Both the position numbers and the translations under genes were made by a program. Below, one piece after another: positions 19,064 to 64,000 of a stretch of DNA of 64,000 bases. Positions within the stretch are counted from its first letter, which is position 1; every line of letters begins with the position of its first letter. Below the pieces are notes generated by a model. That model did no database searches, had not been told where the DNA came from, and worked only from the letters and a program-made list of their open reading frames with translations. This DNA comes from Polytrichum commune (Eukaryota; Streptophyta; Polytrichopsida; Polytrichales; Polytrichaceae), in the NCBI GenBank assembly GCA_950295325.1, contig OX485806.1, positions 29,018,001 through 29,082,000 of the forward strand. Direction: 5' to 3'.

Positions 19064-22000
19064 CTAAACTCGTGATTGACCGAGTTTTTTCTCAAACAGT
19101 CGCCTCAACAACACAACCTGAGCAACACTGCATCCTATGAGTGCCAAAGCTTCCAGAGCTGCCTTGTAGAAAACTCGCCTGCTCATTGCTTGATTAACTG
19201 TCATCAATAATTCCACACTGTCAGACGATCTGTTCAAAAGACATGTAGATATGGAGACATGAAAGACATTGTCATATTTGATAGTAGCCTGCAGATGACA
19301 CTACTCATGACACTGTCACTTTAGCAAGGGGGCAAGAAGGCAAAGTACCAATAGCTTGACGGTCAGTCTGTGCCAGAAGCCAATGTTGTTCAAACTGCAC
19401 GGAGTAAAGAGCCTCCTCCAGCTTCTCAATCTGCAACATCACTGGCTCAATGTGCTCTGCAATCAAACAGTCCATTCCCAAAACTCCATGAATTCGCAGC
19501 TAAACCTTGTACAAGATCTTCTGGCCTACTTGAAACTATTTTGAAGAGGAAATAGTCCGTGAGTTTCTAGGAAAGGAATTATAACGTGCTCACGAATTCT
19601 GGTCTGTCCATCATTGCCAAGATGACATCATAATACAGTTGAAGTACACATGTATGTATACTTTCCACTCTTTACTGATGGTCAAAAACTCAACATACCC
19701 CACCAGTACTCAACATCCATAACAGTAAATAAAATGCAAAGAACACATCAATGCCTCAATGTTCTCTGTGATCAAATAGTCCGTTCCTAGAACTCAATGA
19801 TTTATGTAAGATCCATGAATTAGCAGCTAAACCTAGTTTTAGAAGATCTTCCAGTCTTCTAAAACTAATTTGAAGAAAAAGTAGTAAGTGAAATTCTAGG
19901 ATAGGAAGTACAACGTGCTCATAAATTCTGTTCTCTTTGAACGTGGAGAATCCATCATTGCCAAGATAAGAAATTATGATCCAGTTCAAGTGCACATGTA
20001 TGCATCTCTTCCAATACTTAATAATGGGTGAGAATTACAAGATAAAATAAATGCAAACAAGAAATGTTGTTTATTTAGAGATGAGTGATGTGGAATTATA
20101 AGAACTTACCGTCTGTCAAATGTTGGTCTTCAGGATTTACAAAATGGTGTCCTCCAACAAGCACATCAAAGTCGACCGTCTCGTGCATAGAATTCCGATT
20201 GAAGAAACAGAACTTGTACAGGCCTCTGCGCAAAGCGACAAACTCAAACTTGTCCTCGACTTTCTGCCTGGAGCTGTGCACCTGGTGGCCAGCGGGTGCC
20301 TCCACCTGCAGAAAAATCCTCAAATTCAAAACACACACACTAAAGTCCTCACTAATAAACCTGGTTTCAGTGTAGCAGCCGTTTTCAGTTTATACTATTT
20401 TCCCAAGGTCTTCATAACTGGAATTTACACCCGTTTCAAATGACAGGAGTTGCCCACAACCCACAGACTTACTGTGTCTTCAGGACTTATACCAGTGGCT
20501 TAAACCAAGGCCTTAATCTGGATCCCATGGGAACTCTGAGGTTCAGCTGCCTGAGGTTAATCCGGAATAGTGCTTGGATAGGTGACCTTCCTAACACTTA
20601 ATAACTGGTGCACCCTACTCTTATGGTCCTCCCAATCATAGTTAATTATCAGAGTGAGCCAGATATTTTCAATCAACCATGTGGGAACCTATGGGCCTGC
20701 CCTTGCGGAGAATTAGGTGCAGGTGGGCTTGTACGCGCCTGCTCACGGTTTTCATCTATTAAAAAAGACAATCTTCTTCTAGGTCCCTCTAAATCTCATG
20801 ATGTCCATTTCGAAATTACACTAACTACAAGATGAAGCAACACCATAATCCACGCCGGTGGCACCAGCAACATCGGAGTCATCTCTCTCTCTCTCTCTTC
20901 CCCTCCCTCTCCCTCTCCGTCCCTTTAATGGATCAGATTTGAGATCAATGAACAACGCACGTTATTAACTCCTCGCTAGACCAATTCTCACTAATCCACT
21001 GCATTAGTTCCTTCCCGTTTGGAACTAATGCACATAAGCTTATTCTCGTCCTCACACCTTGCACTTTCCACATGCCAGCCAGGTCCTCAACCATCTCTCT
21101 GAAGCTAGATTTTTGCAAATACATAACCAATCAACACACAAGAGGCAGGCAGGAACTAAACTCCTCACTCTACTAATTGCCTATGCTGAACTAATGCATT
21201 CCTTTCCCATTTGAAACTGATGCGCACAAGCTAGTACTTCTCTTCACACCTTACACCTTCCGCATATCAGCCATCCTCTCAACTGAATACCCAAAGCTAG
21301 GTTTTGGCGAATACACAGCCAATCAATATACAAGAGGAAGCAAGCAGGTACTAAACTCCTCACTCCACCAATTCCCACTAATTTACTGCATTAGTTCCTT
21401 CCCATTTGGAACTAATCCATATAAGCTAATTCTCCTCCTCCCACCTTGCATCTTCAGGATGCCAACCAGCTCCTCACCTGAGTGCCCCAGCCTAGGGCTT
21501 TGAAAATACATGGCCAATCAACACACAAAAGGAGGCAGGCACTGACATCCTCACTCTACATTAATTCCTACTAATGAACTAATGCATTCCTTCCCATTTG
21601 GAACTAATGGACATGAGCTAATTGTCCTACTCACACCTTACACCTTCCGCATGCTAGCCAGCTCCTCACCCCAGTCCCCGAAGCTGGGTTTTTGCCAATA
21701 CTAGGCAATCAACATAGAAGAGGACGCAGGCAGCCAGCCAGCCACTGAACTCCTCACTCTGCCAGTTCCCACTAATGCATTCCTTCCCCGTTTAGAACTA
21801 ATGCACATAAGCTAATTCTTCTGCTCACATCTTGCGCCTTCAGCATGCCAGCCAGCTCTTCACCCAAGTCCCCAAGTCCGCGAAGCTAAGCTTTAGTGAA
21901 CGCACGGCCAATCGACACATAAGAGGCAGACAGGCACTGAAATCCTCGCTCTACAAATTCGAATTTATAAACTTATGCATCCCTTCCCCATTTGGAACTA

Positions 22001-23016
22001 ATGCTTATAAGTTAATTCTTCACGCATAATCTGTATCTTCAGTATGCCAGCCAGCTCCTCATCTGAGTCCCAGCTAGGCTTTCGCAAATACACGGCCAAT
22101 CAACACAAGAGGTAGCAGGCATTCACTGCACTCCTCACTCTGCAAATTCCAACTAATAAACTGATGGATTCCTTCCCCATTTTGTACTACTGCACATCAG
22201 CTAATCCTTCACAAAACTTCCCAGTTCAGCATACCAGCCAGCTCCTCGCCGGAGTCCCCAAAGCTAGGTTTTCGCACAATCACGGCCAATCAACACACAA
22301 GAGGAGGCAAGCAGGCACTATGAACTCCTCGATGTACCAATTCTCACCAATGAATTAATGCATTCCTAGCTCTACAAACTCTCACTAATGAAATTATGCA
22401 TTCCTTCCCCGTTGTGAAACTAATTCACATAAGCTTCTTCTCCTCCTAAAACCTTGCGCCTTCCACATGCCAGCCAGCTCCTCAACCAAGTCCCCGAAGC
22501 TATACTATCGCAAATACACGCCAATCAACACACGAGAGCGTGCAGGCAGGCAGTGAACTCCTTGCTCTACCAATTTCCACTGATGAACTAATGCACCCCT
22601 TTCCCATTTGGAACTGATGCACATGAACTGATTCTTCTCCTCCGCATGCCAGTCAGCTCCTCAAATCCCCGAAGCTAGGTTTCGCGAATGGAAGGCCAAT
22701 CAACATATCAACACACAAGAGGAGGCAGGGGAGGAGACAGGAGAGGAGAGAAGGAAGAGAACGCACTTACAACTAAGTCTAGACCAACGGCGGTGTGGTC
22801 GAAGTTCCAGGCGCTCTCCGACTTGATGACAACGTAGGAGACGTGCACGGTGTCGCCGTCATAGGGCACATCATGCGACCAGCATTCCTTCTTATCGATC
22901 ACGAATCGGATGGCCTCCGCCCGCCTCGCCTCCATCCACACCACCGCACACGCCACCAGCACCAGCTGCTGCAGCCACCAGCACAGGCTCCTTTTTCTCG
23001 CCATCGCCATAGACAT
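19064..23016 (-). CDS. p24-beta family (EMP24/GOLD) cargo receptor, four coding exons
   Basis: Exons on the minus strand are 23016-22771, 20305-20110, 19456-19349 and 19197-19064. Splice sites and phases all agree, giving 227 residues. Residues 1 to about 35 are a signal peptide ending near AEA|IRFVIDKKEC. The GOLD domain follows, with the two family cysteines (KKECWSHDV and the KFCFFN region) and the typical beta blocks DGDTVHVSYVVI and DKFEFVA. A coiled-coil stretch (QIEKLEEALYSVQFEQHWL, then DRQAI) precedes a membrane segment (about ALALIGCSVAQVVLL) and a short cytosolic tail, RRLFEKKLGQSRV, with the KK-type COPI-binding residues of the family. p24 proteins cycle between ER and Golgi in COPI/COPII vesicles. 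Intron 1 (about 2.5 kb) is filled with tandem repeats and a 5S-like segment. Start choice: the first in-frame ATG before the signal peptide. Confidence 0.92.
20483..20600 (+). repeat. 5S-rRNA-derived segment in intron 1 of the p24 gene
   Basis: The stretch GGATCCCATGGGAACTC (20520 onward), then GTTCAGC-TGC and AATAGTGCTTGGATAGGTGACC, aligns in order with the plant 5S rRNA body, including the C box of its internal promoter, with a few small indels and substitutions. It is not a functional 5S gene. It could be a decayed 5S pseudogene, a 5S-type SINE or the 5S-bearing LTR of a Cassandra-like element. Confidence 0.68.
20945..22710. repeat. Tandem repeat of about 190 bp, nine copies, in p24 intron 1
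   Basis: Each unit contains ATGCCAGCCAGCTCCTCA, then a CCCCGAAGCTAGG-like block, a GGCCAATCAACACACAAGAGG block and a CATTCCTTCCCCATTTGGAA block. The first block lies near 21073, 21265, 21457, 21654, 21843, 22044, 22229, 22467 and 22647, so the period is 180-201 bp with one longer step of 238. Copies are moderately diverged. The array fills most of the intron. Confidence 0.85.
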
Positions 23017-31075: not shown

Positions 31076-34000
31076 CTACCTACGCTGTCTCTTCCAATTC
31101 CAGTTCATGTGTAAATCCTGTCGTTGACAAAGAACTCCCCGCGCGCCCCACGTCTTGTCAAAGCCGCGCACCAAGGCCTCTTTGGAGAAGCTGCTAATCT
31201 TAATGTGTTCCAACACCCTCTTCCAAGCCATCTTAGCATAGATGATCAAAGCATCCCAAGTTCGTTGCTTAACCTTAGATTCATGCCATTGTGTCTGGTT
31301 AAACACTTTGTCATTCCGTTCAATCCAAATGGTCCAAAGGGTAATGCCCCTAAGAAGGTGCCAGATTTTAACCACTTTCCCGTATCTTTTGGGAATTCTT
31401 TCCCCGAACACCACTTGCTTCCAGTTGAAGCAATCATAATTACCGGACCTAACCCCACACATTTCGTGCATGATGTAAGTTGCCCATCTCCATGCCCGTC
31501 TAGCTTGGATGCAGTCCTAGAATTTATGCTTAACCGATTCACTAGTGTTAGGTAAGCAAAACACACATTGATTGGAGATAGAAACAGGAGCAATGCGTGC
31601 CCTCCACTCATTAACTGCCACCGCCTTATGCCAAATTGACCAAATGAATGCGGCTTCCTTACCCGAGCGCATTGGATCCCATACTTGTGACCAGTAAAAC
31701 TTGTAGTTCCCTGGGAGATAACCTTGCCATTTATCCGCCGCCCGCGTGGTGCCCGGGTTCCTACTAAGGATGTTGTCACGGCCATCCTTAGTAGTATAGT
31801 CAAGGAAGTGGCTCCCATCGATCCATCTCCACCTATCCGGGTCTCACCCAAGGGTGGCAAGTTTGCCGTAGAAGAAGATAACTTCCTCCCTTTTCCCTTC
31901 TCTCTTAGGCCCCCTGTTCGTGTGAATAATCTTAACTTTGTGAAAGAAACCTTCAAGTTCTCCCTGGGGGTTTTCCCATTCTCTAAGGCATCTCGAGTGC
32001 GTGCCAACCTTAAAGCATTGCACCGGTAGAGGTAGGGTTAAAGTTTTCCGTTGAAAGCACTCGGGGGAGAATTTCTCACCGCATCTGATCACAATGGCCG
32101 GGTCCTCTTCCATGTCAACATAAAAGCCTATCCATTGTCCAGGGTACGTGGTGTCTTCTTCGGAATCCAAGAGGTGGCACCAATATTGGGAGATTTCACC
32201 TATCACCTCCTCCCAATCGGCTTGTTTCAAATATGTGAGATTAAATTTACCTTGGGCTCTCTCCCATGTGAGGAATTCTTGCTACGTGCTATCTCACACA
32301 TCTTCTACGCATCTAATTCCTTTGCGATAGAGGTGAATGCCTTTAAAGTAGTCGATACCTTTATTCAAGAGGTCGACCCCCTCCGACCACCAAATATTGG
32401 AATGTAGAAGTTCCATTTTAGTGCGAGGGGGAAGTTGGTAAGTCCCATTAACCATGACCTTCCATGCCTTGCTAATGTGCCCCCATATCTTAGATCCCGG
32501 AAATCTTTGATGTTGTTGGATGGTAAACCACTCCATACTTACCCCCCACCTTCGACCCCTTTGCGGATTAAATCTTGCCATTCTATATCTAAGCATGAGC
32601 TAGAGATTGGAGTCCCCGGGTTCAATTGCTTTAACTATCCATTTGTAAAACAGATTGATTTTAGCCATCTCCGGGTCCACCAGTCCTAATCCTCCGTGCT
32701 TATTTTTCAAGCAGCATTCACTCCAACTGACTCTCGTCCGTGTGAGTTGTTCCTTACCTGACCAAAGGTAGTTGCGAATGGCTCCCCTTATCTTAGTTAA
32801 GATTTTGTTAGAACCCCCCCACACTGTGATAAAAAACCATAGTGTGGACAAAAACACATGATTACATATGACTATTCTACCTCCCAGGGATAATTTCATA
32901 ATGCTCCAGTAATCTAGTTTTTTTGAGATTTTCTTATAAAGAAAATCATCTACATCCGGGGTGTTGAGGTTGAGACCGAATTGCGTGCCCAAAAGTTTGG
33001 ATAAATCTCCTTCCTCAGCCCATTTCCAGTTGTACCCTGCAAGCCATTCTGGTTTATGCGTATATTTGTCAAACCACGTGGCGTAGGATTTCTCCCAGTT
33101 AATCTCCATTCCCGAAGCCTCATTGAACGTCTTGAGAAGTCTAACCAACTCGTCTACATCCCTCTTTTCTCCTTTAACCATAAATGATGAATCATCCGCG
33201 TACTGAGAAATATACTGTTGTTTCTTTCCCCCCGGTAAAACCACCCCTTTTAGTCTACCTGTAACCACTGCCTTTTTAATGATGTGGGTTAGGACCTCTC
33301 CAACTATCAGAAAAATGTATGGGGCTAGGGGGCAACCTTGCCTAACTCCCCTCTCCACTTTGAAGCTGCGTCCAAGGCTACCATTGATGTTTACTGCCGT
33401 AGTCACGTTCCCAAAGAGAAGTTTTACCCATCTAATATACTGTTCATGGATACCCATCTTATGCATAGCGTGAAATAAGAATCTCCATGAGACCTTGTCG
33501 TACGTTTTGGAGAATTCTAGTTTTAGAAATACTGTAGGTTGCCTAGATGTTTTCGCCCAATATAGAGTTTCATGTGTTAACATAATGTTGTCTAGAATAA
33601 ACCTTAGTGGTAGAAACGCAGTTTGCTCCGGGCTAATCACATCTCTCAGCATAGGTTGAAGTCTAAGCTGGAGGATTTTGGCGAAGATTTTATAAATTAC
33701 CGTGAGCAAGGTTATTGGCCGCCAGTAATTTAAGTCCTTGGAGTCACATTCTTTGGGTATTAGGCTAATTAGTCATTTCGTAACCCCTTTATGCAGAACC
33801 CCTTCCTCAATACTCCTTAGTAACATCTGGTGAAAGTCTTGGCCTATGGTTGACCATAACCGTTGAAAGAATTTTGTGGGGATTCCGTCATGTCCTGGTG
33901 CTTTCCCTTTGGCCATGTCCCTTACTACTGCTCCTAATTCTCTTTCCGTAATTTCCTTCGTAAGTGATGTGTTCATCTCCTTCGTGAATGTGGCTTGATA

Positions 34001-35370
34001 GCCTTAAAATACTTCCCTAATTGCCCTTTCTGATACCTCTTTATGTACATATAGGTGTTTATAGAAGTCATAGCATATAGTGTCCAAGTCTTCTTTCCTA
34101 GTGAAGCATCGACTGTGCTTATCCCTTAACTCTGGTAAAATTGTTTGAGAGTGTTTTTGTCGCACTGATTTAAAAAACTCCGCGGAACATTTGTCCCCTA
34201 CATGTTGCCAATTACTCTAGCTCTTATGGTAGCCCCTCTTGCCTTTCGCGCCTCAATCTCCTCTAGGATGTTATTAAGTCGGCTCACCTCCCTTTGTTTA
34301 TCCGTGTTGTATATGTCCTCATGTTACTTGGCTATGGCTATTTCTAAGTTGGCCCTCGCGTCAAGTTCATCTTTTCTAAATTCTTTAGCCTTGAGCTTGC
34401 TTAGTTGCCTATATTGCCTAGTAACATTCCGTAATTTGTGAAAGAATGAGCTTTCTCCGAGAAGGTTAGACCATCTATCTTTAAGGGTTGCAATTGTCTC
34501 TCCTTTAAGATGTGAGATATTCCATTTGAAGGTGGACTTCCTAGTTCCTTCCTCACCCATGTATATCTCCAATTGCACGGGGGAGTGGTCCGACCCCACC
34601 GAATATCCATGAATGAAGTAGGATGTGTGCTTCATACCTATCCTACTAAATGTTGGTATATAGAACCTATCAAGGCATGCAAATCGTCGGGCGCGGCCTT
34701 TTTGTCCATTATGCCATGAGAATTTGGGTCCACCTTGATGAATGAATGTATCTTGTACTTGGAAAGCATTTAACAAATCATTCCATGTGAGTTTCTCTAG
34801 GTCACTAATTGCCTTCCCACAGTCATTAGACTTATCTTGTATCATTTCCGTCATATTGAAATCTCCACCTATTATCCATTTACAATCCTTAGGTAAGGAG
34901 TCAACCATAATATGCCAAAGATGCCGTCTCTCCGTTGGGATATTGGGAGCATACACACATGCGAGTCCTAGATTCCCTCCTTCAATCCCTTCGAGTTTAA
35001 TCCATACAACCCTGTTGTCATACAATGCTCCATGTGCCGTTACCAATTTCGCATACTTGTGTGCTAGGATTATGCCTACTCCCCCTTTCCCTGCAGCATT
35101 GGGGTTAAGCCAACTCCTTTCCCCTGGTACTGCTTCTAAAATCCAACTTGCACCTCCGGGCATGAGTCTAGATCCTAGGTTTTCCAATGTCCTGCCTCTT
35201 AGTTTGTGTTCTTGTATCATAACTACATCTATCTTAGGTGTTAAGAAGTTGAGAAAACACCTTTCCTTGGTAATACTTTCCGGGTCATTTAACCCCCGGA
35301 TGTTATGTGTGATGATGTTCCACTTCATCTTCATTTCTTTTGATGTCACCCAACCTACCCTACTTCCCAA
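31076..35370 (-). pseudogene. L1 LINE ORF2: APE endonuclease, reverse transcriptase, zf-RVT tail (broken)
   Basis: The APE endonuclease spans 35370-34324, with NIIxHNIRGLN, MIQEHKL, GGDFNM and GSDHSPV motifs. Stops interrupt at about 34324 and 33773. The RT begins at 33976 (KGKAPGHDGIPTKFF) and continues at 33709-32600 with the motif GVRQGCPLAP and an intact YADD box at residues 170-173 of that frame. Motif A reads FLKLEFSKTYDKVSW; the catalytic Asp of the usual KLDF is replaced by Glu. The C-terminal region, 32596-31076 (IWHLLRGITLWTIWIERND), is the typical plant LINE tail, split over several frames. The multiple lesions make it a pseudogene. Confidence 0.9.
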
Positions 35371-36481
35371 GTGGGGATTTATTTCTTGATTCCCACACTC
35401 TACCTTGGCGTGGAGTTAGCTCATGTTTTCCTAAAGCCATAAGACTAGTTGCAGTATTACGAATAGGTGTGTTGGTCCCGGGTGCCATATGTCTGTGTTT
35501 TGACTCGCTGCCTACCTCTGCTCTATTAGCCCCTTGTGAGGGGGTGGGACTATCTAGTCCTATGCTTGCTAGTATTGTCTTATACACCTTGCTATTGCCA
35601 TTTAATTGGTTTAGTTGAGTCTCAGGAATTACCTCCGTAGGCGTTGGGTCAGCTATATGGGGTATCGTGCCTATAAGTCTGCACTCTTCGATATCCATCA
35701 CTACATGAATTTGCTCCTCATTGTATTCGTAAATTCGCCGAACCTTTCCGCCCCTTACAATCTTCTCTCCTTGAATAATCCCTTGGCCCTGGGGAGAATT
35801 ACTCCTACCTGGGTAGTCCCGGGTCTCCCTTCCTCCTCCGGGCCGTTGACCTTGTTGGCCCCCGCCCCGAGGCTGGGGCGGTTGCCTGGCTGACGTGCCA
35901 GCTCCTCCCCCTTCATTTGCTGGCGCCGGGCCCCAACTAGTTCCCTCAGTGTCCGTTGTGCCCCAGCCCTCTCTTTCCCGCCCTTTTGGCGACTTCCACT
36001 CTGCCTCCTTGTCCCACTGAGCCCCATTCTTCACCCGCTCTTCTTCATTAGAGGGCCGCGGGCTTCTGATTTCTCCCTCTTCGCTTTCACTCGCAGAGTT
36101 TTCCTTCTCCTCATCTGTATCTATTGCTGCAAGGCTTCGTTTTTGTCCAGTTTTCTTTGTGGGGGACCAATGCATAGTGGTCTCCAAAACTGAGAGGTCT
36201 TCTTCCCCACTGATTCCTTTGCTTGTACCATGCGTCCTTTGCTCTGAAGCTCGCGGATTCCTCTGTGTTTCCGTATTGACTGTAATCAGGTTGGGTAGTA
36301 TTCCTCCTCCTCTAACTTCTTCACCTTCTTGTCTCTCCCCCAGGGGGTTTGCTCCTTCCCCGTAGGTCTCCTTCATCCCGAACTTCTTCTGTATGTCTTT
36401 GCGGCTAGTTTCCTCCTGTTGAGGCTCCCCTGTTGTCTCGCGGTTTGCCTTGCTGCCTCCTTCTTCCTCCTCTACTGTCAC
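35360..36481 (-). pseudogene. Frame-shifted continuation of LINE ORF1 (acidic, Gly/Glu-rich)
   Basis: A 373-codon open frame, rich in Glu, Gly, Ser and Arg, lies between the zinc-knuckle ORF and the endonuclease. It has no recognisable domain. Its frame differs from the upstream ORF, and it overlaps the first codons of ORF2 by about 10 bp. It is best read as the C-terminal tail of ORF1 separated by an indel near 36480-36640. Confidence 0.55.
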
Positions 36482-36635
36482 GGGCGACCTCTCTGGGATC
36501 GCCCCTTCATCTCCTTGTACTGTCTGCTATGAAGGGGGCATGATCATCTCCGGTTCTCCATTTTGTCGGCCTTCACTCGTCTTCTCTCTGTTGTCATCAA
36601 TTTACTCCTCAGCTGGTTGGGAGCCAGCTACTTTC

Positions 36636-37880
36636 TCAGCGATTCTTAATTTTTTCCCTCCTACAATGTGGATCTGTTCTCCTTTTTCCTTCGTTCTGAT
36701 CGTCATGTTCTTCTTGTGCTGCGGCGGTAGCCATAGCTCCATGTGTCTGCAGGTGCTTGCTTGGTGACCCAATCCAATCCTTTTCCTGTCTCATGTCTTG
36801 ATTGTTTTCAAATATGTTTTGTCGCTCATTTTTCCGTCTCCTAACCTGCTGGAATCCTTCTTGATCTATTATAACGTTTTTACCTTTTTCTTGATGAGTT
36901 GATTGATAGGGTTGTGATGTTTTCTCTCTTCCCCTATATGGCCTCCTTTGTGACTCTTTGCAATCATTTGCTTTATGTTTCCAGTTGAGACACACTCTGC
37001 ACCTAATTGGAAGTTTATCGTAGTCAATCATGACTGTTTGGGGTGGCAAGATCCCTCCCTCCGTTACTAGCTCAATGCTTGTGGCCCATCCTTTGCTGAT
37101 ATCTAGGTTGATGCAAAACCTAGGATCTTTTGCATTTTCATTGGCGGTATCCATTCCGATGACTTCCCCTATTGACTCAGCTATTCCGATTGCTTGGTCT
37201 TGATGCTCATGGGGTAAGTTTCTCAGACTAACCCAGGTTGGGAAGGCTAAGTTACTGGGGTTGTCCGGATTGAATCCTGGTACCCAACTTTGGAGCATAC
37301 AAGTGCCCCATTTGGATCTAAACGGGGAAACCATTAATGCATTGTTCAAAGTGTCTTTGTCATCACCACTGAGAATGAAGAAGCCTTTCCATAAATTCCT
37401 ACACAATGATAATGCATCTCCTCTTATCTCTTGGTTTAAGGCTTGAATCCATAGTTTCATTGCTTGTAATGGAGGTTTGGGTCCTACAAACTTTCCGATC
37501 AAGAGTTGATCCTTCAAGACATTGATTCTTGCAAGTAACTTTTCAGTGTTGACTTTGAACTGAATGGCCTCTTTCTTCACTAAGAATCCGCTAAAGCTTC
37601 TCTCCAGATTTGATGGAAGTATCTCACCATTATGTCCTTTGAAAGGATTAAGATCTCCTCCCGGGCTTTGGTGACTTGCTTCTGCCAGACCTTCAATCAC
37701 CGCATCCTCCATTTGAATGTCTTGCCGCGTTCCTTCTCCAACGATCCATCTGCCTCTCTCTTCCATCATTGGGTCAAAACGAGGTGCACCCCCGAATCGC
37801 ACTTTAGCTGCAAATGATTCCATTTCTCCAAGATTGGCCTTCGGCCGTGTTGCTCCCTCGATCATTTGCATATTCGCCAT
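36636..37880 (-). CDS. L1 LINE ORF1: DUF4283 and CCHC zinc knuckle
   Basis: The frame is open from before 37922 to 36636; the first ATG is at 37880, and upstream in-frame sequence lacks an ATG. A DUF4283-type nucleic-acid-binding domain spans roughly residues 120-305 (GDALSLCRNLWKGFFILSG, then WVSLRNLP). A CX2CX4HX4C knuckle (C-RV-C-LNWK-H-KAND-C, about residues 308-321 counted from 37922) follows. The C-terminal region is basic and Gln-rich. It coats element RNA in plant LINEs. The downstream low-complexity acidic frame (36481-35360) is offset by one base and probably continued this ORF before a frameshift. Confidence 0.85.
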   Translation of the reverse strand: MANMQMIEGATRPKANLGEMESFAAKVRFGGAPRFDPMMEERGRWIVGEGTRQDIQMEDAVIEGLAEASHQSPGGDLNPFKGHNGEILPSNLERSFSGFLVKKEAIQFKVNTEKLLARINVLKDQLLIGKFVGPKPPLQAMKLWIQALNQEIRGDALSLCRNLWKGFFILSGDDKDTLNNALMVSPFRSKWGTCMLQSWVPGFNPDNPSNLAFPTWVSLRNLPHEHQDQAIGIAESIGEVIGMDTANENAKDPRFCINLDISKGWATSIELVTEGGILPPQTVMIDYDKLPIRCRVCLNWKHKANDCKESQRRPYRGREKTSQPYQSTHQEKGKNVIIDQEGFQQVRRRKNERQNIFENNQDMRQEKDWIGSPSKHLQTHGAMATAAAQEEHDDQNEGKRRTDPHCRREKIKNR

Positions 37881-38456
37881 TCCTTTCTGATCTTTTCCGT
37901 TCTGATCTATCAAAACCCACAACTCCTCCCCTGGATCAAACGGTATTAATATGAGATCTAATTAGATCTTATTTCAAATTTCAAAAACTTTGTTATGCCC
38001 AACTGCCTTTTGCCCCAAGCAGATCTGCGCTAATCTCAAGTCTTTACGCCCCCTATTTTCCTTGACGTTTGCTAATCCCTTCTCTAATCCTACTTACTGG
38101 CCTTGTCAAGGCTCACATCTCGATGCATTCACTCAGCGCATCCGCCTCCTCTTCCGTGAGCGAGCCATCTCGTCCAAACACAATTTGCACCCTTAAACTA
38201 GAGGTTTCAATATCAAGAGAATGAGATCTCGATACATGGCTTATCAAGATAATGAAGGCCCCGGCCCTCAGAGCTTCCAGTAGTTAGCCACAATTAAAAG
38301 TTGTATCTAACTAGTGCTAGTCACCTCAAATCATGATGGTTGTCTATGCTGTTTTTTGCCTGCTTTTGATAACTTCGAAATTGCTTCTGCTTCACCAAAA
38401 CACAATAATTCTATTAATGTAACTAACTCAACATTTCACGTTTTGCAACAGTTTCG

Positions 38457-50130: not shown

Positions 50131-51103
50131 TGTCGCAACCCTTGCTAGGTCCCTTAATAATCTTGCCAATTTTCAATTCTAGCAAAGGTTACGAGTCGCT
50201 AACCCTTCGCATTCCGCCATGCTAATGGTTAGCTCCTCTTACCCCGGACCAATAGTTCATAGGAGGGAACCAACCCTCCTACTTTGCTTTCGGGACTCAC
50301 CCCTTAATCGGTAACCCATTTCCCCAATGTGGACTTCCATCCATGGAAGTCCAATCCTATGTTGATCATCGCGTTGCCGGAGCAACACTACAACAACCCG
50401 AACCATACTAGGCAACTATGGCCTCACAATAGGCCAAAGCCCATGGAGGCCTTGCCGTTCGGCCTCGGGTGGGTGAGGCCACACCACCTCACCCATATAA
50501 GCCTCTAGGACTTCACGCGGGGCCCCTACCCCACCGTCAACCAACCTCTTGTCTCTCTACCAAGAGTTGGGGCCAAGTGGACATTTTCCTTTAGCTGCTG
50601 GGCCTAGAACCCACTAGCAGCTTCAGACCATCATAACTTCCTTGTATGATGTCTGATTCCAGCAACCAACCACTTCATCTTCATCTACGCTTCACGTAGA
50701 TGCCGATGGACTCCTCACTTGCCCCATTCGGACAAGTATTGAGGACGTTATGCCTGTTTGAACCTTGGCAGTCCCGGGAATCACTCCCAGGCACTGCTGT
50801 ACCAGGGCGCTGTCCCGGGACAGCGCCCCACTCAAATGGCCATAACTCCTAGCTCACACCTCCGATTGAGGTGTTCTTGAGCTTTCTAGAATCACCACGC
50901 CATGAGCTACGCATAGCTCATGGCCTTACCCTTGTGCCTCCTAGTCTTCGTGGGTGGGAGGCGTTCCCAACGCCCGGGGCCCTCACCCACACTAGGATCA
51001 CTTGGGCCCTCTCACCAACGGCGCCACAAGTCCCGGGTGTCACTCCGGGGTCCCCCTTGTGCCCATGGTGTTTCGGGCACTCCTCATGGAGAGGTGCGCG
51101 ACA
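50131..51103 (-). repeat. 3' LTR of the Ty3/gypsy element (left copy)
   Basis: 973 bp, TG...CA ends. It is the downstream LTR because the coding remnants and PBS are on the minus strand. Confidence 0.95.
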
Positions 51104-51119
51104 CTCACCCCCACCAAAC
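51104..51119 (-). other. Polypurine tract
   Basis: On the minus strand, GTTTGGTGGGGGTGAG lies directly before the 3' LTR, where second-strand priming occurs. Confidence 0.75.
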
Positions 51120-52524
51120 GGAGTCGATGCCCTCATCGACTATACTCCTAGTCGGCACACCAATTCTCAAGTTGCCATCCTCTATGGTGCGGCATTGTGT
51201 TTACCTTAGGGCGCGACCCCCACAATGCATCTTCAAATTTGGCATAGTCCCAAAGGTGTCGTTCCTAGGTGGTCCGTTAGCGACCTTGGATCTCTCATCC
51301 AAGGACCTAACCTACAATAGACCCACCTACTTTGGGACTCACTTGGGTTGCCCCTCCTTTGGGGCCTCCCCCGTTAGGCTCCACTAGCCTAACGTGACAC
51401 ATCTAGGCGAGACCTCAACGCTTCCACTAAGTTGTCTCGGTTGCAACTCCGAGATGGCTTTCCATTGTTAAGCCACGCCTCGATCGCACGGGGGTGATGC
51501 CAAGTCCCGCCCGACTCGGTTCCCACTTTGCTCTTTCGAGACATGGGTTCATGACTCCCATGCGCCAACTTTCGTTAGCTCGCGGGTAGCACTTTTATGA
51601 GCACGCGCCATCACCTTGCCCCCGCCCGGACAAGCCCACAACTAAGAAGTTTCTTGGTTTTATCCAAGGCCCCTCCAAGCCATGGCCCCCAATTACTCGG
51701 CTTACCCAACCTAGTTTGGCATATCTATTCCCCCTCTTCCATTAACCAAGCACAAGTACAAGACTAGGACCTCATCTCATACTTTTCTCTTTGCACCACT
51801 AAAGTTTGGACTTTATTCCCTCAAGCCAAAGAACAAGTTCATGTTGTGGAGTAATTAGCCTTGAAGCTAAGTGTGCTACTAGGGTCTCTCCCGCACTAAA
51901 GGAGATTGATGTCCTCATCAATGCCTACGCTTCATTTTATTGGAATGTCTAGCCTTACTTTCTTCAAAGTGCTTCACCAATTCCTTGGCGTTCATCATGT
52001 CTCTTGCCGCTACCCAAACGGCTTCATTCTATCCTCACCATTTCACCAAGTAGTCCTTTGTACATTTTCTTTCATTTTTACTTGGGCTTCCTACACTTGA
52101 GGATGCCCTCCTACCTCATGTTCCAAATGACGTCCACAAGGTGGGGAGGTGGCCTAATCACTTGCTTGTGATCGGGCCACAAGGTGTCGTCCTAAAATGA
52201 CTTTCGTAATGAGACATGAAATGTCGGATGCACTTTGATCTCCGGCGGTAATTCCAACTTATATATGTCCTTGACCACTTGTTCCACAATGGGAAACGGA
52301 GCTCCAATTTTGGACATGAACTTTGGAGTGAGGCCTTCCGGCTAGGTGAAGTTGTTCACATTCAACAACACCTTTTGGCCCACCTCATTCTCCACTTCGC
52401 GTCTTCCGGCATTGACTTGCACTCCGTAGCACCTTCGGGCTTTCTCCACCAACAACTTGGTCATCTCCAAGACTTGTTTACGATCCTTGGCCAAGTCCTC
52501 ACCATCTTGGTTAAACTCTAGTGT

Positions 52525-53328
52525 TCAATGTGCCCCTCCGAGAGCTAGGTTAATAGGTTGGAGCGCATCCACTCCATAAGCCACCACGAAAGACCACCCC
52601 TTGGTAGCCAAGTGTGTGGCTACCTTGCAATTACACTCCGCTCGACCCACATAGTCCGCCCAATCTCCTTGGTCCGCCCCCACCAAGTTCCTCAAGTATT
52701 GCTTCAAGACTCCATTCACACGCTCCGTTTTCCCATCCATTTGGGAATGCAAGGCCGTGCCAAACCTTAGTTTCATTCCGACCTCCTTAGAGAAATGCAT
52801 TGAAAATGCACTTGTGAACTTTGGATCTTGATCCCACACAATCACTCTTGGCAACCCGTGGTGCCTCAACCATCCTTTGAGAAAAGGCTATGAGGTCTCC
52901 AACGCGGCGGCGGTTCCCACAATCGGCACCATGTGTGCCAACTTGGCAAACCGCTCTACCATCAACAAGATGGTATCATACCCATGTGACTCCGGCAAAC
53001 TTGTGATCAAATATATGCACATAGTATGCCATGGTGCCGACGGGATAGGGAACGGTTGCAAGAAACCGCCTTGCTTTTGGTAAGAGGCTCGGTTCACTTG
53101 GCACCTTGTTCACGCCTTCACAAAGTGGGTTATATTCTCTTTTATGCACCGCCAATGGTACCTCTTTGACACCATTCTATGGCGGCTTTTTCTTTCTCCT
53201 CTATGGCCGGCAATAAGACTATCATATTCCTCCTTCAAAACCGATAGCCTCAACTTGCCTTGTGTCACATACACCCAACTTTGCTTGCACTTGAACAATC
53301 CGTCCACCAACTTAACCTCTTTGAGCAC
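52525..53328 (-). pseudogene. Ty3/gypsy integrase remnant
   Basis: The zinc-binding H-H part is at 53328-53110 (IAGHRGERKSRH and HWRCIKENITHF). The core follows at 53097-52525 in broken frames: LITSLPESHGYDTILLMVER, IVWDQDPKFTSAF with the second catalytic Asp, and HSQMDGKTERVNGVLK with the catalytic Glu. The first catalytic Asp, expected in a MDFITSLP context, reads CIYLITSLP here, so it is lost. A degenerate chromodomain-like tail lies at about 52400-52080. Confidence 0.82.
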
Positions 53329-56163: not shown

Positions 56164-57136
56164 TGTCGCAACCCTTGCTAGGTCCCTTAATAATCTTGCC
56201 AATTTTCAATTCTAGCAAAGGTTACGAGTCGCTAACCCTTCGCATTCCGCCATGCTAATGGTTAGCTCCTCTTACCCCGGACCAATAGTTCATAGGAGGG
56301 AACCAACCCTCCTACTTTGCTTTCGGGACTCACCCCTTAATCGGTAACCCATTTCCCCAATGTGGACTTCCATCCATGGAAGTCCAATCCTATGTTGATC
56401 ATCGCGTTGCCGGAGCAACACTACAACAACCCGAACCATACTAGGCAACTATGGCCTCACAATAGGCCAAAGCCCATGGAGGCCTTGCCGTTCGGCCTCG
56501 GGTGGGTGAGGCCACACCACCTCACCCATATAAGCCTCTAGGACTTCACGCGGGGCCCCTACCCCACCGTCAACCAACCTCTTGTCTCTCTACCAAGAGT
56601 TGGGGCCAAGTGGACATTTTCCTTTAGCTGCTGGGCCTAGAACCCACTAGCAGCTTCAGACCATCATAACTTCCTTGTATGATGTCTGATTCCAGCAACC
56701 AACCACTTCATCTTCATCTACGCTTCACGTAGATGCCGATGGACTCCTCACTTGCCCCATTCGGACAAGTATTGAGGACGTTATGCCTGTTTGAACCTTG
56801 GCAGTCCCGGGAATCACTCCCAGGCACTGCTGTACCAGGGCGCTGTCCCGGGACAGCGCCCCACTCAAATGGCCATAACTCCTAGCTCACACCTCCGATT
56901 GAGGTGTTCTTGAGCTTTCTAGAATCACCACGCCATGAGCTACGCATAGCTCATGGCCTTACCCTTGTGCCTCCTAGTCTTCGTGGGTGGGAGGCGTTCC
57001 CAACGCCCGGGGCCCTCACCCACACTAGGATCACTTGGGCCCTCTCACCAACGGCGCCACAAGTCCCAGGTGTCACTCCGGGGTCCCCCTTGTGCCCATG
57101 GTGTTTCGGGCACTCCTCATGGAGAGGTGCGCGACA
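56164..57136 (-). repeat. 5' LTR of the Ty3/gypsy element (right copy)
   Basis: 973 bp, identical to the left LTR by eye except for G to A at offset 904 (57068). It lies next to the primer-binding site. Confidence 0.95.
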
Positions 57137-57409
57137 ATCGTGGTTTGAATTAAGTGGTGAGCGACGATTTGGGAAAGTAAGGGGAGAAAGTTATGGCGGC
57201 GGAAAGCGAAGGAGGCTAAGTTTGGGTTGAAGCATCCCAAGTTTGGTAAAGTGTGGTAGGTAGAAAGCCAAGGCTAGTTAAATGTTCGAATTAGGATCCT
57301 TGTTGATCATTTGAGGGAGGAAGGCTTAGAAGATAGGATTGGCGCCTACTAAGTAGGAGGAAATCTCAAGGGCTTATCGTGAGCCTTGAGGGTGCTCACC
57401 CCCTCAAGC

Positions 57410-58610: not shown

Positions 58611-61600
58611 CCTATCAACAAAACACACAAAAATTACATACCTTCGACAACCATCCCAAAGCAACTCTCCACTGCCGCCCACGGGCAGCCTACGATCGCC
58701 GCTCCAACACCGTCCGAATCCGCGCTGCACCCACACCACCGCCTACCAGCACCCTAACCAACAACGGCAGACTCCAACCTACGCCGAAACAACACGACAT
58801 ACAGGCACACGTCGACCAGAAGCCCCAACCCATACACGCCCCACCCAGCATACACACAATCACACTACCTACAATTAAAATCACGCATACACACGATCTC
58901 CAACGAACCTACCACACAAAACCTAATCCTACACAACCTACCAATCTGCCAGCAACATGCACAAACCGCCATCAGACATCCAGCCCAACACACCCGAGCA
59001 ATTACCAAAACACCCTTGAAAAAGAAACCTGCACAAATTCCTACAATAGCCACCAAACACCCCTACATAATGCATCCACACTCGACTCACACCTCACCCA
59101 TCCACTCTCTCTCACACACACGCCTGCACACAATCACTCCCACCGAATCACCTCACCCCTCGCTCCACTCCCCTCCTCCCTCACTCCCCCAGCACCCCCC
59201 ACCACAGATAGCCTACGACCTCTCGTCCATCCCTCAACCCTCTCCCAGTTGCTAGCACCCAGCGACCAAGAGCGGAGGCACCACCCGACAGTGAAGTACC
59301 ACCCCGATACAGCCACAACGCCGAAGTACTCGAACCCGCCACCCCAACAGTCGACGGCACCCAGCGACCACGAGCGCACACAACATCCAGCAGCCCGGAA
59401 TCAACAATCACCCGAGGCAACTCTACCAAGACACCCCGCCAGACCCCACCAAACAGGAGCACCGAAGACGTCTCGCGGCCACCACCAACCAGCGCGGCAC
59501 CAATTCGACACCATCCTAACCCAGGTACACATTCTCGCACACTCACCATATCACATTCCCCTCTCCCTTAGACACCACCCCACACCTCAACTCCACACAG
59601 ATACCACCCCACAACCTTCACACAGTGGAATCTCCTTGCAGAGTCACTCGAACGCACAGCTCCTGGAACCGCCGAAACTGCAGCAAGCCGACAACACCTC
59701 ACCACAACGCCCCCCTGCAACCACAACACACAGGATCAGCCCCGCTACCAGTCTCGCTTGCTGCACCAAACACCACCCACGACACAGCCCCGCCCCCGCC
59801 CGCCCACAACAATCCGACCTCCAGCAAAGCACACCTCCCAGATTCCACCCGACATTCCACCAAGCAACCCCACACCAAGACACAACAACAAAGAACAGAG
59901 GCCCAACACAGACACCAGAATTCGAAATCAGGGAAAACCACAGACACTGGAGCTGGAAGGAACCTGTAACGGCTACACCCACAAATAGTGCACCGGCAGC
60001 TGACAAGACCCACTACACTCGACTCCTAATGGCCCAGCTCAGTCACCATCTAGGTACTCCACCTCCCACCACTATTGATAATTAGTACTCTGAATTCCGC
60101 CTACAGGTACAAGCCCAGCCGCCATCCGCCCACAACTCACAGCCTTCACTTCCACCACCCATACCACATGCCACACTCGCCCAAGATGACTTGGACATGG
60201 ACGCCCAGTTAGAGAATGTCTCCCCGGAACGAGGGGGTAGCTCTCTCCAATTTTCTTACGAGCGAAACTCCCCACTTGCCGCATCCCACAAATCCGCACG
60301 CATCACCGAAAGCACTCCGCCAACATTACTATACCGTAACCCAAGGATCGAGGACGCATCGGAGAGCCAAACCACTAAACGGAGGAAGGCCGATGACTAC
60401 ACCGCCACGTCAACTCCCGAGGTACCAAACAAGACTACACCACCACCACACACAAGATCACAACGAGTCGCCACCTTCGGCATAGACATGAGTGGACAAC
60501 TATGGCTAGGTTTTCAAATGCACGAAGCACTCTCCATTCAACGGGGGAAGAAGGAGTTGAAGGAGAAGCGTACCAACGAGGAATTCACCAATACCGGCAC
60601 TCCTATCACCGAAATTCAAGAATTCCGCTCCCTCCGACGTGCCTTCCCAAGGACCAAGCAAACTCTCTACCCATCCGAAAGACCGGATGCGGCGCCCGGA
60701 CAACATCTCCACCTAACGCAAATTCCCATGTACGAGAAAACCTCTCAAGACACGGGACTTACCGACGGTTTCCACGTCACCATACGATTTGACGGTGCTT
60801 ACAAGACGCTCAACCGGAGGGAGGTAAAAACCGCATGCATGGAAAGGTTGAGGATCATGAACATACCGCTAGGTTCCGCATACTCCAATCCCATTGACAT
60901 AGGCATCAATACGGTAACTCGCAATTGGGCCGGATTCATAAAGCTTCACCTCCAAAACCCAAAACAAGACGGATTGGCCCTACTTCGAGGAGAGCGAGCG
61001 TTCGTCATGGCTATGGGAGATGGCGAACGGATCATAGGCAAAGTGGAGAAAGGCTTTGAGCTCATCACAAAAGCCAAACATATGAGGTTACACCTCAAAG
61101 GTGAGTCCATCCGAAATAACTCGGCCGTAGACATACTTAAGACTCTCATGAGAGAATTTTACTATGACGGACGCGAGGTAGAGATACTTTCACTCACCAA
61201 ATCCGACATAGATAAAGATTTTGCATTTATTACCCTCACCACCGAGGGGTCTAGAGATGACATTCTTAGCAATGGACTTACTTACCAATCCGAACGCCTC
61301 AAGGTTAGCATAACTAAGGACAAGGACACGGGGAATCTATCAGAGCTTAGGATTAGCACTACATTAGTTGCTAATAACCTACCCCAAAGAGAATCCCAAT
61401 CGGCCATCATCAAAGCCCTCAAGTGACTATTCGGAGAAGAGAATATCACTGGCATTACATTCGGTCACGTACCCCAAGGAGATGACCGCCAAGCCGGATG
61501 GTGCCATGTACAATGTTTGAATGCGGCCGTTTACACGGAATGGGCAAGAAAATCAACGTACATCCTCGGGAGACGCGTCGATTTCATCCCCCACAAAGGT

Positions 61601-62131
61601 AGCATCAATGGCTCCGAACCCAACCAAACGGCTATACGGCTCGCACACGCACCGGTCCGCGAGGTCATCGCCCAAAAGGCTCAAGCCATGAGCAACACCG
61701 CCGCCTCTTCACCCCTAGTGTCGGAGAAACTCTTCACCAAAACAATGAAAGAGCTGGTCAACACGGTGGATGAGAAACTTACCACGCTAACGAACAACAT
61801 CAACCTCAACACGGATATGCGCATTGAGGCCTCTACGGACACACTCAAAGCTCATGCCACAAACATTCACAACATCATGAGTGCCATGGCTATTGAGTTC
61901 CAACACTCAAACAACCGAATGCACAACATCATGCAAACCTTGGCCGCCACCACACCGGAGCCTCCCCACCAAAACATCGGACGGCTTCCACATGCGCCTA
62001 GCACATCCATGACCAACGCCTATGCGGGAGACACCACGGCTCACCACTTAGCACCACCGGGCTTCCTCGGCAAGCACATCCGTAGCCCCTCACCAAGCCT
62101 CCACAAAGACCTCCAACATCTACATGATTAG
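58611..62131 (+). pseudogene. LINE ORF1: low-complexity arm, RRM-like domains and coiled coil, with two nonsense codons
   Basis: One frame is open to 62131 except for a TAG at 60083-60085 and a TGA at 61424-61426. To 60085 it is Pro/Thr/His/Ser-rich and disordered. From 60191 it becomes structured. One RRM-like fold starts at GFHVTIRFDG, a second around ILKTLMREFYYDGREVEIL to FAFITLTTEG, and a third spans the TGA (VANNLPQRESQSAIIKAL, then LFGEENITGITFG and GWCHVQCLN). A heptad-like coiled coil follows (LFTKTMKELVNTVDEKLTTL). ORF1 proteins of this layout bind element RNA. The two stops may reflect C-to-T decay. Confidence 0.75.
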
Positions 62132-62876
62132 CACACCTAAAGCAAGTCCAACAAAGACTCGCACACAAATGACATGTATTTCTTTTTTTCATATAAATAA
62201 AGGGTCCACTGTTGCACAATATATCATTAATATATGGATGGTTTGTTTGCTATACACAACTCTACACACGAACACCAATCATAATGGCCACCCTACCCAA
62301 AACCTCCCAACCAACGACCACCACCAAAATAGACAAACCCGTACCACCCACACACAAACTACAACACACGACACATATTACAAAGGCCAATACACACATA
62401 AACCACCCGCTCCCAACCCCCAACATAACCTCACAATAAACAGAAATACACTTGACATACACACAACAATAAGCCTACTTAGCCTAACATCACTACTTAC
62501 CCACAACTTACATACACTCCAACACAATATATACCAAGGCCAACCATACCAACCTACACTAGCTACATTTACCCTAACATACCAAAACTCTTCACACCAA
62601 ACAACTCACAACACTCTCACCCCCCCACCACACCATAACCTCTACCATCCTCATAACACACAAAACTTCCACCCTAGCCTAATATTAAACCACCAACCTA
62701 ATCACAAAACTACAATCACCTCCCAATACTATAACCACATACATGACAAACAACACCTCACCCACACACATGCTCCGAACAAACGCACCCCCTTTTATCC
62801 CTCCCATCCATCTTACATCACACATTGGCAACATCCTCTACATCACACACACACACCTAAAAACTCCCAAAGCTAA
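62124..62876 (+). other. Possible start of LINE ORF2, overlapping the ORF1 stop
   Basis: An ATG at 62124 overlaps the ORF1 stop in ATGATTAG. The frame runs 250 codons but is a Thr/His/Asn/Pro-rich low-complexity product. It may be a genuine ORF2 start followed by a frame break before the 2A region, or a chance open frame in A/C-rich DNA. Confidence 0.35.
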
Positions 62877-63597
62877 GCTCATAAAATATTATATATGGAA
62901 GAACACCACACTCATAATTCTCAGTGGAGACATTGAAACCAACCCGGGCCCCTCCACACATATCCTACATAACCTCCCCATAGAATTCACCCAACGACAT
63001 AAGCAATACTTCATGCATAACACAATTACACTCAAACACCAATATGCCCACCTTCAAGAATTATTTGGACAATACCTAAACCAACCCACTCACCAATCCC
63101 AAAGGGATGACCTAACCCATCTACGAAAACATAGTTCTCTCCTCTCTCAATACCCAACCAACCACCAAATATACGCATTCATAATAGCCTATAGCCCAAT
63201 TCCTAGCATATGTAACCAACAAATGACCAACAACCTAAACCCAAATTGCCTCACCATTCTTCGAAGATTACATAACCAACCCCCTCTCACGCATTCCAAG
63301 TCACAACACATCACATCCACCCCCACCACCCAAACCACCACCATATCGCACGCCTACACTTACATCAACGATAACATAGCCCAAAATCACTCCATAACCA
63401 CACAAAACTTGCAAAACAAATTCCCTCACATCCCCCAAAAAATCCTGGCAGAACTAATCAAATGCACACAACCTATAAGGGGATACCACCCCAATACACG
63501 ACAGGAGAACCCCGCCCCCACACCATCGGCGGTCACACACACACAACCACCACTCCACCACATTAACCATAGTCACTTGGAACATGGGCTGCATTAG
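62743..63597 (+). CDS. LINE ORF2 N-terminal region with 2A-like ribosome-skipping motif
   Basis: The frame is open from 62689; the first ATG is 62743. Residues 57-70 read LIILSGDIETNPGP, matching the 2A consensus D(V/I)ExNPG|P with the preceding hydrophobic stretch required for skipping. Skipping would release a 69-residue peptide from this ATG and begin the downstream product with Pro70 (codon 62950-62952). About 210 residues of unrecognised, His/Gln/Thr-rich sequence follow. The frame ends at 63597, while the APE endonuclease continues in the +1 frame, so either this copy carries an indel in the 63479-63597 overlap or a frameshift is programmed. Confidence 0.75.
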   Translation: MTNNTSPTHMLRTNAPPFIPPIHLTSHIGNILYITHTHLKTPKAKLIKYYIWKNTTLIILSGDIETNPGPSTHILHNLPIEFTQRHKQYFMHNTITLKHQYAHLQELFGQYLNQPTHQSQRDDLTHLRKHSSLLSQYPTNHQIYAFIIAYSPIPSICNQQMTNNLNPNCLTILRRLHNQPPLTHSKSQHITSTPTTQTTTISHAYTYINDNIAQNHSITTQNLQNKFPHIPQKILAELIKCTQPIRGYHPNTRQENPAPTPSAVTHTQPPLHHINHSHLEHGLH

Positions 63598-64000
63598 TTC
63601 TAGCCTACCAGGCATCCAAGAGCTCACACATACACTACACAAAAACCCACACATTATACTCATCCAAGAAACCAAACTACAACAACATAAATCCACAACA
63701 TACATAGACAGGAAATTCCAAAACTATAAAATCATATACAACAACTCCAACAACACAACTTACAAACACAACCGCTACGCCGGACCTACCATGGCCAGAG
63801 GGGGTATACTAGCCCTAATTTCCAAGACCATATACACAAATGAAAATATCAACAAAATTCCCATCCCAAGCCCAATATCACCATACTTACAAGCCATACT
63901 CATTACAAACAAACCTATCAAGCCAATACTAATATTAAATATGTACATGCCTACACACCCCCAAGATATACACCTCACAAGAGACATACAATCCCAAATC
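63563..64000 (+). CDS. LINE ORF2: APE endonuclease, N-terminal part (cut by window edge)
   Basis: The frame is open from 63479. TIVTWNMGCIS, then HIILIQETKL, then ARGGILALISK and ILNMYMPTH are APE/EEP endonuclease motifs I-IV of non-LTR retrotransposons: the catalytic Asn after the first strand and the Glu of QETK are present. The product continues past the window end, where the remaining DFN and SDH motifs and the reverse transcriptase are expected. Confidence 0.82.

Follow-up and report, generated by a model that had tools for sequence, protein, structure and literature searches.

That LINEs can carry 2A motifs is already known; Odon et al. (2013) reportedly found them in APE-type non-LTR elements. 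The points of interest of the locus described here are the plant host, the non-L1 lineage, the architecture of the leader, and the variation at position 14 of the motif (p14). According to the accessible part of PMC4981915, StopGo works in plant cells, and the available text of a 2026 survey records no natural use of StopGo by plant viruses (PMC12846837). Our literature search returned no report of a 2A in a plant LINE, as far as the accessible texts go; one may stand in Odon 2013, Rao 2025, Luke 2014, or Heras 2006. A review describes the LINEs of flowering plants, in the portion available, as almost only L1 with some RTE (PMC3747384). Excerpts of another source count CR1, L2, and R1 among the superfamilies present in all groups surveyed, land plants included (PMC4438587), which argues against plants holding strictly L1 and RTE.

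We analyzed a 64-kb stretch of DNA (the window) in which an initial annotation had placed a canonical 2A motif within ORF2 of a LINE. By analogy to established 2A biology, we consider it likely that a non-L1 LINE family of the APE type would use StopGo to split a leader off its APE-RT protein.

The 2A core and the copy that carries it

The motif reads SGDIETNPGP, follows the hydrophobic residues LIIL, and conforms to D(V/I)ExNPGP (Table 1). Translation of the window in six frames revealed no second match to this consensus, and the assignment as a canonical 2A with hydrophobic lead-in is upheld. From residue frequencies we estimated 9e-5 chance matches per window (six frames), and none occurred in any of 200 order-3 Markov copies of the window. 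For NPGP alone, the expectation per window is 0.5 (Markov) to 1 (frequencies). Therefore, the full core, not NPGP, carries the weight.

Table 1. Positions of annotated features in the 64-kb window.
Feature	Position	Strand	Remarks
RIN4/NOI-type AvrRpt cleavage motif, open frame	13408-14043	+	PF05627, E = 1.2e-5
Plant L1 LINE	32603-37961	-	Range containing the Pfam matches; DUF4283 ORF1, APE, and RT in separate open frames
L1 RT	32603-33772	-	Pfam match
L1 APE	34327-35415	-	Pfam match
L1 DUF4283	36639-37961	-	E = 3e-8
ORF1 of the 2A element	60086-62128	+	Frame open from 60086; in-frame TGA at 61424-61426; stop codon TAG at 62129-62131
ATGATTAG	62124-62131	+	Start codon of ORF2 (probable), in overlap with the stop codon of ORF1
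Probable leader part of ORF2	62124-62760	+	End approximate; frame 0, frame uncertain
Extended 2A module, 44 residues	62821-62952	+	Frame 1; context HIGNILYITHTHLKTPKAKLIKYYIWKNTTLIIL plus core SGDIETNPGP; from 18-sequence alignment and anchored column statistics
2A core SGDIETNPG/P	62923-62952	+	Skipping predicted after Gly (62947-62949) and before Pro (62950-62952)
Post-2A domain	62950-63540	+	Frame 1; predicted all-helical
APE endonuclease, N-terminal part	63566-64000	+	Frame 2; cut by window end

ORF1 of this element gave no Pfam match at the curated cut-off and no match to DUF4283. Its C-terminal 40 residues align to positions 1-41 of the relative P0025 (score 84 versus 48 for the best of 500 shuffles), and that protein runs on past these ORF1-like residues into an ORF2 leader. 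Judging from the overlap ATGATTAG, the start of ORF2 probably falls within the final ORF1 codons, and ORF2 would be translated by termination-reinitiation. The coding strand of the ORF2 region (62124-64000) contains only 6.5-8.7% G, versus 20.5% in ORF1.

The frame of the leader is less sure. Segment 62694-62813 aligns in frame 0 with the leader of P0005 (score 90, with 300 shuffles reaching at most 71), ties with the shuffle maximum for the P0001 leader, and falls below it for five others tried. With the low-complexity filter off, tblastn matches of relatives in the leader region occur in frames 0 and 1. These mixed matches indicate weak conservation of the leader between its two ends and make frame 0 probable, not sure, for the window.

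The 2A core lies in frame 1 (open at 62689-63594) and APE in frame 2 (open at 63479-64000), where its start matches PF03372 with E = 3e-4 and 21 bits, below the curated cut-off of 24.5. The initial annotation had put the motif upstream of an APE in ORF2; the APE start is indeed found downstream, but in a different frame, and ORF2 of the window copy is not intact. Hence this copy is unable to make a joined 2A-APE product. From NPGP to APE it holds 631 nt or 210 1/3 codons (211.33 if counted from the next codon), as compared with 209-222 whole residues between the same end points in 17 relatives. Because of the stop codon in ORF1 and the frame change between 2A and APE, we regard the copy as broken. 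Together with a leader that is probably in frame 0, these defects make it very probable that the window copy is a plain fossil, which inherited its 2A from an active ancestor and does nothing now. We found no counter-evidence to this reading, which says nothing on the family and is compatible with StopGo in active members. Since the window ends inside APE, the RT, the 3' end, and the target-site duplication are out of view.

Conservation and variation of the site in relatives

Protein searches identified 42 distinct relatives (P0001-P0042) from ENA, JGI, and a third source, and none in the viral, phage, and prokaryote collections scanned. Among them, P0001 is most similar to the 2A frame, with 72% identity and E = 3e-109. 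By tblastn, 38 of the 42 match the window in frame 1 at about 62200-63640, covering the 2A and the following domain, and in part the leader, and 29 match the window APE in frame 2 with 38-84% identity. NPGP and the APE start occur in one protein in 17 relatives, with the near-constant spacing given above. The 1131-residue P0030 contains 2A, APE (PF03372, PF14529), and RT (PF00078) all in one frame.

To locate the site without use of the motif, we built an anchor profile solely from the 90 residues that follow the 2A. With this profile, the post-2A domain was found in the window and in 34 of the 42 relatives; the other eight include P0009 despite its two NPGP sites. A site was counted as readable if the sequence contains the domain start and at least 8 residues before it, which is true of 31 relatives (P0021, P0022, and P0023 have the domain but not its start). 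At this anchored position, 25 of the 31 have NPGP; copies without NPGP, or with the motif out of frame, were what the initial annotation had named as refuting its proposal. The remaining six read NLGP (P0003, P0042), NSWP (P0006), NPDP (P0015), HKPGP (P0002), and TPGP (P0019); such losses are expected because the set of relatives includes decayed copies. The conservation is one across copies and not across assigned species.

A tree of the post-2A domain was calculated from the 27 rows in which a 2A-like match is followed by 90 residues or more (long branches lead to P0009, P0004, and P0006). The window, which has E at p14, groups with P0001 and P0003, both H14 (three rows, support 95/87), and seven of the eight Q14 rows fall into one group of 12 (support 99/96). 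A distant subgroup of P0024, P0038, P0040, and P0042 (support 100/100, branch of 1.42 changes per site) keeps the site, as NPGP in P0038 and P0040 and as NLGP in P0042.

The conserved stretch is longer than the core. An alignment of 18 selected sequences shows about 45 conserved residues including the core, roughly YIGxIxYITHLHLKTPKxKxIxYYTWNNSxIILLxGDIxxNPGP, in which P60, G80, D81, N85, and P88 are invariant (window-frame numbering). The alignment comprises the window plus 17 relatives, picked by eye from the 28 then known because their 2A region could be read. Imperfect motifs were accepted in P0003 and P0015, P0002, P0006, P0019, P0024, and P0025 were left out, and P0021, P0022, P0023, P0026, P0027, and P0028 were left out because the region is missing. 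A review gives 30 residues, in the text available, as the shortest reported length from which StopGo is independent of its flanks (PMC12371167); the 44-residue module of the window exceeds this length.

A pattern search over the relatives and the window returned 39 sites, among which 34 contain NPGP and only nine the full D(V/I)ExNPGP. Position 14 is H in 14 sites, Q in 12, E in 12, and K in one; counting only sites with NPGP, H14 occurs in 11 and Q14 in 12. Columns that the search pattern left free are near-constant (P 35, G 34, and P 37 of 37 sites, with P0040 and P0042 left out). The accessible passages of PMC12846837 report that H at p14 is more than 95% active in reticulocyte lysate, and that E14Q was only 56% or 26% active in earlier tests. 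In view of these weak E14Q activities, members with Q may skip less well, or the longer module may compensate.

The variation between E, H, and Q at p14 would also suit a motif that is kept as a folded or ligand-binding stretch of an uncut ORF2 protein, without any skipping. Conservation that spans about 35 residues before the core and continues into the helical domain, as it does in ordinary domains, points in the same direction. Yet the core equals the known skipping motif residue for residue, H14 is a functional variant as far as the passages of PMC12846837 go, and the core is kept in the second site of P0038 and in P0040, where the upstream context differs. For these reasons we judge an uncut protein to be unlikely.

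Seven of the 42 relatives contain more than one 2A-like site (P0004, P0005, P0008, P0009, P0011, P0024, and P0038). P0005, P0008, P0024, and P0038 have a site of the common type and then one of a second type, which is followed as NPGPMPxLL; these four carry two or three 2A-like sites serially in one frame, the second type being last. In P0038, both site types and then an endonuclease match (PF14529) lie in one frame of 985 residues. Such relatives may be LINE polyproteins with several StopGo sites, or chimeras of nested insertions.

Leader, predicted products, and lineage

Twelve relatives have full leaders, which start with MN(R/S), MIS, or MDS and are 152-431 residues long (152-279 in nine; 307 in P0042, 361 in P0035, and 431 in P0014). 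Judged from the proteins, all these starts can be encoded as ATGnnTAGn, which could put the ORF1 stop in ORF2 codons 2-3, as in the window. An NK pair at residue 25 is shared by the window and nine of the 12. The most hydrophobic 15 of the first 30 leader residues are matched by fewer than 5% of each leader's own shuffles in 10 of the 12, although P0004 is borderline (49 of 1000); P0009 (93 of 1000) and P0042 (120 of 1000) are above 5%. The leader may thus have a membrane role.

The motif, the conserved module, the common frame, and the near-constant spacing are features that the relatives share. What is known of 2A sequences elsewhere lets us infer the skipping step and its two products: in this LINE family, a single reading frame probably yields two separate proteins. 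In intact members, ORF1 would end a few bases past the ORF2 start codon, and the ribosome would reinitiate on ORF2. It would then build the leader, mostly 150-280 residues with the hydrophobic stretch first. Once the 2A module (about 45 residues) has been synthesized and occupies the exit tunnel, Gly and Pro would not be joined and the leader would be released. The same ribosome would go on to make the second protein from Pro, consisting of a helical domain of about 200 residues, APE, and RT. The initial annotation had suggested that skipping separates ORF2 products or adds an independent N-terminal peptide; from the sequences, the site would more exactly separate a leader of 152-431 residues from the helical domain and APE-RT. 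Counting for StopGo are the canonical core and NPGP at 25 of 31 anchored sites, including the deep second group (P0038, P0040). Counting against it are the six of 31 sites without NPGP, Q14 in 12 of 39, and the full core in only nine of 39.

A more elaborate scheme strikes us as possible but doubtful. It would combine two recoding steps, namely reinitiation at the overlapping ORF2 start and then StopGo between a membrane-targeted leader and APE-RT, so that the skipping rate would set the balance of free versus membrane-tethered replicase. The long module would make Q14 and H14 equal to E14, the second subgroup would be a true polyprotein with at least two 2A sites, and the LINE lineage would be one undescribed in land plants.

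AlphaFold2 predicted the post-2A domain as all-helical, with a mean pLDDT of 70.2 alone and 71.4 together with APE, and a structure search with the predicted domain gave no confident structural match. The RT was compared with L1 and R2 references only. Best scores were 114.6 bits (R2) versus 76.0 (L1) for P0039, and 112.1 versus 60.9 for P0041; as a control, the plant L1 of the window scored 109.5 with L1 versus 63.2 with R2. Three R2 sequences, at 101-115 bits, outscore L1 for both relatives, and the R2-type 8gh6 (67.0) and 8ibw (63.0) are below L1 for P0039 and above it for P0041. By this measure, the 2A family is therefore not L1. This result, and a 2A site that is conserved in the APE-type family and lies in a land-plant-like sequence, partly support the proposal of a lineage unusual for land plants. 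Elements of the R2 clade have a restriction-like endonuclease at the C-terminus and no APE. ORF2 of P0030 has APE ahead of RT (of these two, the window includes just the beginning of APE), and the presence of APE speaks against an ordinary R2. All RT-bearing relatives stop short of an intact C-terminus, with APE present in P0030. RandI/Dualen elements of green algae combine APE and a restriction-like endonuclease in one protein; RandI/Dualen or another APE clade are candidates for the 2A family.

The surroundings of the element bear on the question of its host. Two direct repeats of 976 nt (50131-51106 and 56164-57139) are 99.8% identical and are the long terminal repeats of a probably recent insertion. 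Beside the right repeat, TGATACCA resembles a minus-strand primer site for initiator tRNA. The two frames of this insertion that were searched, 50917-51384 (overlapping the first repeat) and 52528-52887, gave no Pfam match. Elsewhere in the window, a satellite-like tandem array (20967-22727) consists of units of about 192-195 nt, with copies about 70% alike. The DUF4283 L1 and the RIN4-type NOI motif are hallmarks of land plants, and with them the window looks like land-plant DNA. A LINE foreign to the plant, present by contamination or by a recent horizontal transfer with an animal or protist as donor, would fit with the unassigned hosts of the 42 relatives. Moreover, the accessible passages of PMC4981915 and PMC11512398 describe 2A-bearing LINEs from trypanosomes, sea urchin, and others. 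Against such an origin, the same 64 kb holds the DUF4283 L1, the NOI motif, and the LTR element that adjoins the LINE, and the three sources of the relatives, with nothing in the viral, phage, and prokaryote collections, also disagree with it; we find it improbable. A mere chance match as source of the motif can be dismissed as practically negligible, given its minute expectation, NPGP at the anchored site of most readable relatives, and the near-constant columns.

Comparison with known systems

A family-wide 2A in a land-plant LINE, if true, would mean that StopGo has a native use on the plant side. Natural variants such as E, H, or Q at p14 in one scaffold, the long module, and tandem sites would probe what is needed of a nascent chain, and the family would allow one to ask for what reason a LINE discards a leader before its replicase is made.

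The order ORF1, APE, RT is the same as in the plant L1-clade LINE of the window. Unlike that element, the 2A family has an RT that scores nearer to most of the solved R2 proteins than to L1, and an ORF1 without DUF4283. With viral StopGo sequences of the FMDV type, the window shares the D(V/I)ExNPGP core, and H14 of the relatives is a verified functional variant in the available text of PMC12846837. In contrast to the viral sequences, Q14, which is below the threshold in that text, is common among the LINE relatives. The 2A signals of sea urchin NLR proteins likewise combine a hydrophobic start with a 2A, where skipping could decide between membrane and cytosol, as described in the accessible part of PMC4981915. 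In those proteins the 2A and the 26-residue N-terminal sequence are one and the same (same source), whereas over 100 residues separate the hydrophobic start from the 2A in the 12 full leaders of the LINE relatives. Like L1Tc and animal APE-type elements, the family has a 2A-like motif in frame with a LINE APE-RT protein. It differs from the trypanosome and animal elements in its land-plant-like window, in a 2A placed behind a leader of 152-431 residues, at the end of a conserved module about 45 residues long, in H or Q at p14 as often as E, and in the two or three sites of seven relatives.
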